Shown: in pieces, positions 47,344 to 58,882 of the stretch
Layout: every line of letters starts with the position of its first letter
Numbering within the stretch: the first letter of the stretch is position 1
Origin: Prauserella flavalba
Lineage (GTDB): Bacteria > Actinomycetota > Actinomycetes > Mycobacteriales > Pseudonocardiaceae
DNA: 64,000 bases
Reading direction: 5' to 3'
NCBI RefSeq assembly: GCF_003202235.1
Contig: NZ_MASU01000008.1
Span: 124,001 to 188,000, forward strand
The notes under the pieces: generated by a model
What the model was told of the DNA's origin: nothing
Database searches by the model: none
The model's input: the letters and a program-made list of their open reading frames with translations, nothing else
Translations under genes and position numbers: made by a program

Positions 47344-47349
47344 ATAGTA
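47344..47349 (-). promoter_or_regulatory. -10 box TACTAT for ctaA
   Basis: On the minus strand TACTAT is followed by 8 nt and then GTG 47335. It overlaps by 3 bp the first of three 33-bp repeats, so the repeats occupy the upstream promoter region. Confidence 0.45.
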
Positions 47350-47480
47350 GAGCGGCGCGAAGCGCCTCCGTTTGGGTGGGGGAGGGGAAGTGGCTGGCCA
47401 GTAGAGCGGCGCGAAGCGCCTCCGTTTGGGTGGTGGGGGGAGACGGGTGGGGAGTAGAGCGGCGCGAAGCGCCTCCGTCT
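47347..47480. repeat. Three spaced copies of a 27-33-bp hairpin-bearing repeat upstream of ctaA
   Basis: Copies at 47347-47379 and 47401-47433 are identical over 33 bp. A third at 47454-47480 keeps 27 bp with one change near its end. Each contains GGCGC-GAA-GCGCC, a 5-bp stem with a GAA loop, inside GTAGAGC...CTCCG. Start-to-start spacing is 54 and 53 bp. They lie between the ctaA start and the ABC operon terminator. No spacer similarity suggests CRISPR. Confidence 0.8.
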
Positions 47481-56568: not shown

Positions 56569-57015
56569 GTGAACCTTGAGGGCATGTACCAGGAGATCAT
56601 CCTGGACCACTACAAGAACCCGCACGGGCGGGGCCTGCGGGAGCCGTACGACGCCGAGTCGTTCCAGGTCAACCCGACCTGCGGCGACGAGGTGACGCTG
56701 CGGCTGAAGGTGACCGACGGCAAGGTCGCCGACGTCTCCTACGAGGGGCAGGGCTGTTCCATCAGCCAGGCCTCGACGTCGGTGCTCACCGATCTGGTCA
56801 CCGGCCACACCGTCGGCGAGGCACTGTCCACGATGGACGCTTTCGTCGAGCTGATGCAGGGGCGCGGCACCGTCGAGCCGGACGAGGACGTGCTCGAGGA
56901 CGGCGTCGCCTTCGCCGGTGTCGCGAAGTACCCTGCGAGAGTGAAGTGCGCGTTGCTCGGCTGGATGGCGTTCAAGGACGCACTGGCCCGGACGTCGAAC
57001 GAGGTGGAAGCATGA
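56569..57015 (+). CDS. sufU: SufU-type Fe-S assembly sulfurtransferase/scaffold
   Basis: A 148-residue IscU/SufU-family protein. It has the start LEGMYQEIILDHYKNPHGRG, then the zinc/ligand residues in NPTCGDEVTL (Cys, Asp), GQGCSISQASTSVL (Cys) and VKCALLGW (Cys), with the insertion between the second and third Cys that marks SufU. In Gram-positives SufU takes sulfur from SufS. GTG 56569 abuts the sufS stop, and the end overlaps the next gene by 4 nt. Confidence 0.94.
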   Translation: MNLEGMYQEIILDHYKNPHGRGLREPYDAESFQVNPTCGDEVTLRLKVTDGKVADVSYEGQGCSISQASTSVLTDLVTGHTVGEALSTMDAFVELMQGRGTVEPDEDVLEDGVAFAGVAKYPARVKCALLGWMAFKDALARTSNEVEA

Positions 57016-57404
57016 CCGAGACGCCCGAACACCGCGAGGGCCGGACCGCCGCGGATCTGCCGGAGCAGACCCAGCCCTCCGCCGCCGAGGTGGCCAGGAT
57101 CGAGGACATCGAGGAGGCCATGCGCGACGTGGTCGACCCCGAGCTCGGCATCAACGTCGTCGACCTCGGCCTCGTCTACGACATCCGCGTCGAGCCGGAC
57201 AACACGGCCACCATCGACATGACGCTGACGTCCGCGGCGTGCCCGCTGACCGACGTGATCGAGGACCAGACCGCGTCCGTGCTCACCGGTCCCAGCCTGG
57301 TGAAGGACTTCCGCATCAACTGGGTGTGGATGCCGCCGTGGGGCCCGGAGAAGATCACCGAGGACGGTCGCGAACAACTCCGAGCCCTGGGCTTCACGGT
57401 CTGA
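57012..57404 (+). CDS. sufT: SufT/PaaD-like metal-sulfur cluster protein (MIP18 family)
   Basis: A 130-residue DUF59/MIP18 protein involved in Fe-S maturation. The core shows EAMRDVVDPELGINVVDLGL (DPE motif), TLTSAACPLTDVIEDQT (conserved Cys) and INWVWMPPWGPEKI. The first 40 residues are polar and variable. ATG 57012 overlaps the sufU stop (ATGA). It closes the suf operon 6 nt before a large inverted array of 21-bp repeats. Confidence 0.9.
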   Translation: MTETPEHREGRTAADLPEQTQPSAAEVARIEDIEEAMRDVVDPELGINVVDLGLVYDIRVEPDNTATIDMTLTSAACPLTDVIEDQTASVLTGPSLVKDFRINWVWMPPWGPEKITEDGREQLRALGFTV

Positions 57405-57410
57405 CGCCAC

Positions 57411-57663
57411 CGCGAGTCGTGCACTCAGGCGCGCGAGTCGTGCGTTCCCGCTCGCGAGTCGTGCACTCCCGTTCGCGAGTCCCCCGCTCCAGCGTGCGAG
57501 TCCCCCGTTCCTGACCGCGAGTTACCCGTTCGGTACCGCCCGAGCCGGCAACTCGTGAGCCGGAGTGGGGGACTCGGCGTCTCGAACGCACAACTCGGGG
57601 TCGGGAACGCACAACTCGGCGTCCTGGGCGTACGACTCGCGGCCGGGAGCGCACGACTCGCGG
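57411..57663. repeat. Twelve-unit palindromic array of 21-bp repeats between convergent genes
   Basis: Six direct units begin at 57411, 57432, 57453, 57474, 57495 and 57516 (exactly 21 bp apart, consensus CGCGAGTCGTGCnyTCCCG). Six inverted units follow, their ACTCG cores at 57551, 57572, 57593, 57614, 57635 and 57656, again 21 bp apart. All six pairs are symmetric about 57536.5, so the whole 253 bp is one interrupted palindrome. It fills the space between the sufT stop (57404) and the kinase stop (57665). Confidence 0.9.
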
Positions 57664-57664
57664 G

Positions 57665-58882
57665 TCAGGGCACGCTCGCCACGGGCTTCGGTTCCGGGTC
57701 CGGGTCGGGTTGCGGGGCGGGGAGCCTCGCCGACAGGGCCCAGCCGGTGCCCTCGGGTCCCGCGCGTAGCGTTCCGCCGAGTAGTTCCACGCGCTCGCGC
57801 ATTCCGATCAGACCGTGGCCAGAGTGCTGCGCGGGAACGGTGCCGGAGGGGCCACCGTCGCCGTCGTCGGCGATGTCGAGCCGCACGCCGTCGCCGGCGA
57901 GCTCGGCGGTCAGCCACACGCGGGCGGAGGAGCCCGCGTGCTTGGCGACGTTGGCCAGCCCTTCCTGTACCAGGCGCAGCACGGCGAGCGCCTTCACGGC
58001 GTCGAGCCCGGCGAGCGCGGGGTCCACCGTGGCGTCGATGCGCAGCCCCACCTGACGGCCCCGGTCGACCACCGCGGCGACGGCCGCGGGCAGCTCCGCG
58101 GGATCCACGAGGTCGCCGCCCGCCGTGTCCGCCGCCTCGGGGTCCCGCAGGACGGCGACGAGCCGCCGCAGGTCCGTGAGCGCGCCGGAACCGGTGGCGT
58201 GGACGTCGTCGAGGACCTGCCGCATCTGCTCGTCGCCCTCCCCGAGCAGATGCCGCGCCACCCCCGTCCGCAGCACGATCGACGCGACGTGGTGGGCGAC
58301 GAGGTCGTGCAGCTCGCGCGCGATCGCGGTCCGCTCGGCGACGCGCACCATCTGCGACTCCGTGCGGCGCAGGCGTTCCTGCTCCGCCGCGCGCTCCTCC
58401 GCCTGCCTCGCGCGCACGTTCATGCCGCCGATGTAGGCGCCCAGCACGAGCGGACCCACCACCACGACGGCCGTCTGGAACACGACCTCGGCCGGGGAAC
58501 GCAGCGGGTTGGTCAGCCCGATGAGGAAGTACACGCCCGACAGCGCCGTGGCCGCGGCGGGCAGCGCCCACCCGGTCCGGCGCATGGCCAGCTCCAGCAG
58601 TGCGAAGCTCGCCAGCACCTTGAGCGGGATCATGTTGTCGATGCCGAGGAGCTCGCCGGTGGCGAGCATCGCCGACTGCGTCAGCGCGCTGGCCAGCGGG
58701 CTGCGCGGCGAGAACCAGGCCGCGGCGAGGGCGCCGGACAGCAGCGCCCAGCCCGCCGGGTCCGGAAGCTCGGCCGGTGGGGCGAGCAGCAGCAGGTAGC
58801 CCACGGCGATCGCGGCCAGCAGCGAGACCCGCACCGGGGTGAGCTTGCGGTCGAAGAGTCGTTCGATGAGCGAGGCGAGCAT
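57665..58882 (-). CDS. Sensor histidine kinase (HisKA_3 class)
   Basis: A 405-residue membrane kinase with about five or six hydrophobic segments (residues 15-150), a coiled linker rich in Glu/Arg (EERAAEQERLRRTESQ), the phosphoacceptor helix IARELHDLVAHHVASIVLR, and an HATPase domain with RLVQEGLANVAKHAG and SGHGLIGMRERVELLGG. The tail is Pro/Asp/Glu-rich. It is divergent from a second kinase/regulator pair with 117 bp between the starts, so it may share or oppose that system. Its signal is unknown. Confidence 0.85.
   Translation of the reverse strand: MLASLIERLFDRKLTPVRVSLLAAIAVGYLLLLAPPAELPDPAGWALLSGALAAAWFSPRSPLASALTQSAMLATGELLGIDNMIPLKVLASFALLELAMRRTGWALPAAATALSGVYFLIGLTNPLRSPAEVVFQTAVVVVGPLVLGAYIGGMNVRARQAEERAAEQERLRRTESQMVRVAERTAIARELHDLVAHHVASIVLRTGVARHLLGEGDEQMRQVLDDVHATGSGALTDLRRLVAVLRDPEAADTAGGDLVDPAELPAAVAAVVDRGRQVGLRIDATVDPALAGLDAVKALAVLRLVQEGLANVAKHAGSSARVWLTAELAGDGVRLDIADDGDGGPSGTVPAQHSGHGLIGMRERVELLGGTLRAGPEGTGWALSARLPAPQPDPDPEPKPVASVP

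Follow-up and report, generated by a model that had tools for sequence, protein, structure and literature searches.

What is the role of a phased array of short repeats lying between the 3' ends of two convergent genes? The question arises in a 64,000-nucleotide stretch of the Prauserella flavalba genome (contig NZ_MASU01000008.1, positions 124,001 to 188,000; here called the window), where a sufT-like gene and a histidine kinase gene face each other across such an array. A preliminary description of the locus regarded it as an exactly periodic array forming one palindrome and offered several readings of it: a hairpin or cruciform, a barrier to read-through in either direction, and a set of sites for a protein. 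We followed these readings through the array itself, the other arrays of the genome and those of related genomes.

The array at the sufT-kinase junction

The features of the junction are as follows (window positions).

57012..57404, + strand: SufT-like gene with PF01883 (FeS_assembly_P), its 3' end at the left arm
57411..57536, + strand: left arm, six 21-bp units in the sense orientation relative to sufT, starting at 57411, 57432, 57453, 57474, 57495 and 57516
57537..57662, − strand: right arm, six 21-bp units in the sense orientation relative to the kinase gene, starting from 57537 to 57642
57665..58882, − strand: histidine kinase gene with PF07730 (HisKA_3) and PF02518 (HATPase_c), its 3' end at the right arm

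Positions 57411-57662 thus hold twelve 21-bp units (252 bp), six forward and then six reversed, with no drift; both unit calls and TRF, which found the 21-bp period in each arm, confirmed the strict step first described. The left arm begins 7 bp after the sufT stop codon, the right arm ends 2 bp from the stop codon of the kinase gene, and the two arms abut tail to tail with no gap. Within the left arm, the outer three units are of the type GAGTCGTGC, the next two are GAGTCCCCC and the innermost is GAGTTACCC. A weight matrix recovered six forward and five reverse units, the innermost reverse unit being degenerate, and core heptamer pairs 21 bp apart (a 28-bp pattern with at most 2 mismatches) occurred six times in the window, always in the array, where shuffles lead one to expect 0.8.

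The palindrome, first given as 253 bp, needs correction: its step is exact and its dyad does lie at 57536.5, but its length is 252 bp and only 84 of 126 pairs (67%) match, facing units agreeing at 12 to 16 of their 21 positions. Likewise, the one pair of facing units reported to change together (57495 and 57558) indeed carries CCCCC on both sides, but the other CCCCC unit, at 57474, faces TGTGC at 57579. Folding of the whole array as RNA, which had been proposed as a check, gave a strong structure on both strands (z −8.6 for + and −8.9 for −), as expected when both arms carry one consensus. No Rfam family matched up to an E value of 1 across positions 57300-57800. Elsewhere in the window, 47346-47478 contains 2.5 copies of a tandem repeat with a 53-bp unit (90% matches); it ends in a GGCGCGAAGCGCC-type inverted repeat and is unrelated to the 21-bp units.

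Copy number and distribution of the arrays

In the genome of P. flavalba (G000; 8.09 Mb in 39 contigs), we counted 147 forward and 154 reverse occurrences of the unit-plus-core pattern, and a reversed-pattern control gave 0. For an unselected sample we used 1.16 Mb of contig C5 (the C5 tile), with an arm defined by at least two exact GCGAGT cores and genes called by a simple codon-usage script rather than a standard gene finder. This tile holds 42 arms. Three fall within called genes, and the remaining 39 make up 23 arrays, 16 two-armed and 7 one-armed, a split in which exact-core counting may miss degenerate second arms. Loci of Prauserella cavernicola (G053), Prauserella muralis (G041), G084, G044 and G077 were taken at the first listed pattern matches and are therefore nonrandom, the C5 tile being the only unselected sample. 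A set of named loci (L021 to L042) partly duplicates P. muralis and P. cavernicola; identical stretches were removed for the analyses of phasing, arm match and complementarity, and all named loci were excluded from the counts of site sharing, gap hairpins, and step and composition.

Among Pseudonocardiaceae, 17 of 100 genomes were positive for the first pattern and 18 of 220 genomes, from 11 of 46 genera, for a two-arm pattern; named carriers are P. muralis (itself a member of the family), P. cavernicola and Amycolatopsis thermalba. Elsewhere in the order, other families gave pair-pattern counts close to those of the control. Three consecutive units of a sister core, CGTGTC, again with a 21-bp step, were matched in 15 of 92 genomes, with at least 9 matches in ten genomes (five genera) and 5 or fewer in the other matching genomes. 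These sister arrays were seen in genera g4, g10, g15, g20 and g24, with up to 182 three-unit matches in G024, and many share a common palindromic center. In G062, three two-arm arrays (C1:534426, 802828 and 3423386) are nearly identical, the third in the opposite orientation, and may belong to a longer segment that was duplicated or is mobile.

Genomic position and conservation of sites

The arrays are tied to the ends of genes. None of the 39 intergenic arms of the C5 tile lies in a divergent gap, although such gaps make up 199 of 1,133 gaps and 36% of intergenic bases. The adjoining ending gene is read in the sense of the arm in 29 of the 39, and 22 of these 29 arms start within 12 bp of the stop codon; of the remaining 10, nine are the second arm of co-directional two-arm arrays and one is a lone two-unit arm. 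Neighboring arms within 3 kb of each other were never found in reverse-then-forward order (0 of 109, some named loci being counted twice). Whether arrays sit only between convergent genes had been named as a point to check; they do not, for 9 of the 23 arrays of the tile are convergent and 14 are co-directional. In one further arrangement (L073, 12551-13718), an open reading frame is enclosed by two arms 1 kb apart, and this arrangement recurs at the flanking genes in P. cavernicola (L085), P. muralis (L138) and G044 (L165).

Sites are also shared across species. Relatives lacking the array at the sufT end had been named as evidence that would count against it; instead, G084 and P. cavernicola both carry an array there with other numbers of units, G003, from another genus, has a one-armed array of diverged units, and several further genera have a single hairpin without a U run (read by eye). 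At orthologous gene ends of P. flavalba and P. cavernicola, an array was present in both species 22 times and in one species 5 times. Within the unselected tile, all 10 P. cavernicola array genes with an ortholog have an array in P. flavalba, against a background of 29 sense arms per 1,134 genes. Counts of sites occupied in both genomes and in one were 4 and 0 for G084, 4 and 3 for P. muralis, 4 and 7 for G044, and 1 and 6 for G077.

Order of units and their joint change among species

Of 697 core-to-core steps in the range of 15 to 27 bp, 675 measure 21 bp, even though neighboring units are not identical: they differ on average at 3.5 of their 21 positions (461 pairs), and they are closer in sequence than distant ones (0.831 versus 0.779). 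When an arm has three or more units, GAGTC nearly always occupies its outer end (T at position 7 in 0 to 7% of outermost units) and GAGTT is frequent at its inner end (48 to 84% of innermost units), in all six genomes; where an arm contains both types, a strict outer-to-inner order was kept in 108 of 134.

The predominant unit type differs by species, being CGTGC in P. flavalba (67%), CCCCC in P. cavernicola (48%) and G084 (56%), and CCTGC in P. muralis (60%). Over positions 7-15 of 20 arms common to P. flavalba and P. cavernicola, the same site compared across species agreed at 0.565, and different sites within a species agreed at 0.772 and 0.701; over the spacer (positions 16-20) of those arms, the corresponding values were 0.478 across species versus 0.476 and 0.490 within species. 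Positions 7-15 are more alike within a species than at one site across species, and the spacer is not; such joint change of units suggests a reader acting in trans more than it does arrays being copied. The four sites of P. muralis count against this, for there the spacer too is uniform within the species, as would be expected if arrays were copied from one another.

Variation of G/A and C/T at positions 12 and 13 prompted the idea of a mini-hairpin inside each unit (GAGT-N5-RYTC). This candidate gained no support, as the dyad partners remained paired in 0 of 3 units changed at position 3 and in 8% of 26 changed at position 5; the values were equivocal at position 4 (70% of 10) and at position 6 (53% of 17).

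Pairing between arms and local hairpins

If the arms were selected to pair, those of one array should match each other particularly well. Across 66 two-arm arrays, each compared within its own genome, the opposite was found: two arms of the same array complement each other less well than arms drawn from different arrays (0.728 versus 0.748). This deficit is carried by arms less than 200 bp apart (z −4.6, n = 57) and is absent from far arms (z +1.7, n = 24). The positions affected are 12, 13, 16 and 17 and, weakly, 19 and 20; positions 7-10 are spared. Failure to assemble palindromes is unlikely as its cause, since the deficit persists (z −2.5, n = 8) in two genomes that consist of 1 and 3 contigs. 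P. cavernicola taken alone showed no deficit, and no excess of G-U pairs was seen between arms. In the simplest reading, close arms would avoid forming long palindromes while their recognition positions stay; the available text of one source describes long palindromes as a danger to chromosomes (PMC3315005). Given this complementarity below chance, there is no support for co-change of facing units as a general rule or for selection acting on a hairpin or cruciform. The 7 one-armed arrays among the 23 of the tile also speak against such selection; of their seven single arms, one folds about 2 standard deviations better than shuffles.

Local hairpins are scarce where arrays are present. In convergent gaps of 60 to 450 bp without an array, the best 44-nt hairpin lies a median of 10.1 kcal/mol beyond shuffles (n = 76), compared with 0.1 in gaps with an array (n = 61, six genomes pooled; p = 7e-10), after two ambiguous gaps were dropped and with a 44-nt window that is blind to a long two-arm hairpin. 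There are two exceptions: in G044 the gaps without arrays are also hairpin poor (n = 7, −0.8), and in P. muralis some hairpins are kept in array gaps (n = 9, −3.9). Convergent gaps without arrays in the P. flavalba tile hold strong compact hairpins, which are apparently the usual terminators of this genome.

Distance between facing arms

In several genera, the distance between facing arms (D, from the innermost forward core to the first reverse core) takes preferred values roughly one helical turn apart. Testing periods of 6 to 30 bp on a discovery set (D < 130, n = 36) gave a peak at 10.4 to 10.5 bp (R = 0.70, p = 2e-8), and P. flavalba taken by itself gave R = 0.83 at 10.5 bp (n = 23). The next 11 arrays were again periodic (p = 0.008) but did not reach significance for the preset phase (p = 0.09), owing to a shift of about 3 bp in the genus to which G044 and G077 belong; three new P. 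flavalba arrays (D of 24, 45 and 46) fit it, and G020 is shifted by about 2 bp (p = 0.05 for the preset phase). Over the whole genomes of P. flavalba and G084, the 20 arrays with D between 20 and 50, 12 of them outside the discovery set, take values of 24-26, 33-36 and 45-47 only. In 14 other genomes, which leave out these two as well as G044 and G077 (the last two tested apart) and include one own-genus array from P. cavernicola, the 26 arrays with D between 36 and 66 among the matches listed take only the values 44-47, 54-57, 64 and 66 (Monte Carlo p = 5e-6, the floor of the test).

The CGTGTC arrays behave similarly. With one value for each listed array, one near-copy from G062 dropped and G024 set apart, their corresponding distance D' (34 to 64, n = 34 among the matches listed) falls at 41-43, 51-52 and 62-64, with one value of 36; judged against windows fixed beforehand, 27 of 34 lie inside, 6 are off by 1 bp and one by 2 bp. 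In G024, all 21 arrays among the matches listed have 43, and their centers are related. Phasing was not found in P. cavernicola (n = 15, R = 0.17) or in the named loci (n = 7, R = 0.24), nor was there support for phasing of same-orientation arms lying off the 21-bp lattice (16 cases). Among 14 arrays of genus g44 read by eye, a distance of 95 is clearly off the classes and one of 87 follows the phase of the P. flavalba genus and not the g44 phase. When the narrow sets of D are scanned, the peaks fall at 11.5 and 10.0 bp, the classes being alternately about 9 and 12 bp apart; this uneven spacing raises the possibility of two favored center designs half a unit apart.

Explanations for the arrays

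We propose, with a probability of roughly 0.5, that the arrays are phased sites for a putative protein that would block RNA polymerase where a hairpin terminator is absent. A sequence-specific protein would recognize every 21-bp unit by its CGCGAGTC core together with the adjoining species-specific half; with forward and reversed sites on about one face of the helix, the bound copies could form one continuous complex, and this complex, placed just after stop codons, is predicted to halt RNA polymerase where gene ends have no compact hairpin terminator, and with it read-through in both directions. A DNA-binding protein on one helix face would explain the step, the preferred distances, the joint change of the recognition half and the indifference to pairing, and the position of the arrays together with the missing hairpins suggests that stopping RNA polymerase is its task. 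Whereas position and orientation, step, distances, absence of pairing selection, lack of hairpins, shared sites, joint change and unit order are all read directly from the DNA, it is from these features that we infer the protein, its binding and termination. Among the readings offered at the outset, the best fit is a putative protein bound once per two turns of the helix, and the position of the array would suit a block to transcription arriving from either gene.

A long RNA hairpin, formed by the two arms once transcribed and serving as a bidirectional terminator or a shield for the mRNA end, could account for the very stable fold predicted on both strands, for the invariable forward-then-reverse order of the arms and for two-arm arrays even between co-directional genes. 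We nevertheless consider it unlikely, given that close arms complement each other less than expected by chance and show no G-U excess, that nearly a third of the tile's arrays are one-armed and their arms seldom fold better than shuffles, and that unit positions 3 and 5 show no compensation. Rho loading, with the RNA of the sense arm acting as a rut array that recruits Rho just past the stop codon, fits the sense orientation, the place after the stop codon and the lack of a local hairpin, as well as the excess of C over G in the units of four of the six genomes (G077, G044, G084 and P. cavernicola); in P. flavalba, however, C (0.365) and G (0.347) resemble other 3' ends, and loading on RNA explains neither an exact 21-nt step nor the distances to an arm on the opposite strand, which leaves this the least probable of the explanations considered.

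Two further explanations were weighed. A supercoiling site that wraps DNA gyrase or a similar low-specificity protein and absorbs positive supercoils at gene ends would account for the two-turn spacing and for a 3'-end, nondivergent position like that of the REP/BIME elements in the accessible part of PMC3733652. The replacement of local hairpins at arrays and the lack of a Y1/RAYT transposase in 12 of 12 genomes speak against it. Moreover, gyrase should need less than a strict core and a jointly changing recognition half, and we regard this explanation as quite unlikely. A neutral or selfish repeat family, spreading by slippage and recombination and tolerated downstream of genes, would agree with unit numbers that vary among species at one site and with the greater likeness of adjacent units; sites shared across species, as in P. 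cavernicola, are not expected of tolerated junk, nor are a strict step despite diverged spacers, ordered unit types and missing hairpins, and we view this account as about equally unlikely.

Comparison with known systems

Plasmid-origin iterons are direct repeats of about 20 to 22 bp that present one helix face and are bound by one protein; the arrays differ in being chromosome-wide, at gene ends and equipped with reversed arms. Protein-aided termination is represented by the Sal boxes of rDNA with TTF-I. DNA-bound proteins also pause or halt RNA polymerase in the H-NS filaments and LacI roadblocks treated in the available text of PMC4337669, where H-NS filaments in their bridged form assist termination by Rho in vitro, and the protein-on-DNA reading of the arrays is alike in this putative respect. 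Unlike these termination systems, the arrays are dedicated, oriented and phased at many gene ends, and their protein is putative.

REP/BIME elements resemble the arrays in their many extragenic copies in convergent or co-directional gaps downstream of coding regions, and roles involving gyrase, termination and mRNA have been proposed for them, as far as the accessible part of PMC3733652 goes. The arrays share the 3'-end, nondivergent position (0 of 39 arms divergent) but differ in having a unit that is not itself a palindrome, with only the partial dyad GAGT-N5-RYTC, and a strict 21-bp lattice. Membership in the REP/RAYT system was rejected: the Y1 transposase domain PF01797 occurred in 0 of 12 genomes, the control being positive in 5 of 14 known genomes. 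Intrinsic terminators made of hairpin clusters are also found at gene ends, and in the available portion of PMC8355165 mycobacteria are said to have many terminators of the U-less kind, but the units of the arrays have no supported hairpins of their own; the 61 array gaps of six genomes showed no excess of compact hairpins over shuffles, and complementarity within arrays below that between arrays gave no sign of compensatory change. The TAACTGA repeats of Beggiatoaceae likewise form many short intergenic sets of direct repeats but, in the accessible text of PMC4679880, lie mostly just upstream of start codons and have a different unit.

Searches of open-license papers gave no description of this family, and matches to the letters of the unit concerned unrelated subjects, judged by title; an earlier account may exist elsewhere. 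The arrays likewise fell outside REP/RAYT, hairpin terminators and Rfam families, and the function proposed for them is deduced from sequence.

Implications for Pseudonocardiaceae

At the level of the family, we advance more tentatively, and as somewhat less probable than our reading of the arrays themselves, a system of termination or insulation in which a putative protein on helically phased arrays, graded from outer to inner units and placed right behind stop codons, replaces hairpins at scores of genes per genome, its specificity and its sites changing together. If this is true, some bacteria would end many transcripts by a dedicated protein on phased DNA and not by an RNA hairpin, a mode for which we know of no described bacterial counterpart. 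The arrays would then also offer an unusually clean natural series for the study of protein-DNA coevolution, the same gene ends being of the GTG, CCC or CTG type depending on the species. Even if termination proves to be wrong, an extragenic family with a two-turn step, ordered units and apparent avoidance of palindromes needs explaining. The Pseudonocardiaceae include many antibiotic producers, and the arrays make the 3' ends of genes in this family directly testable.
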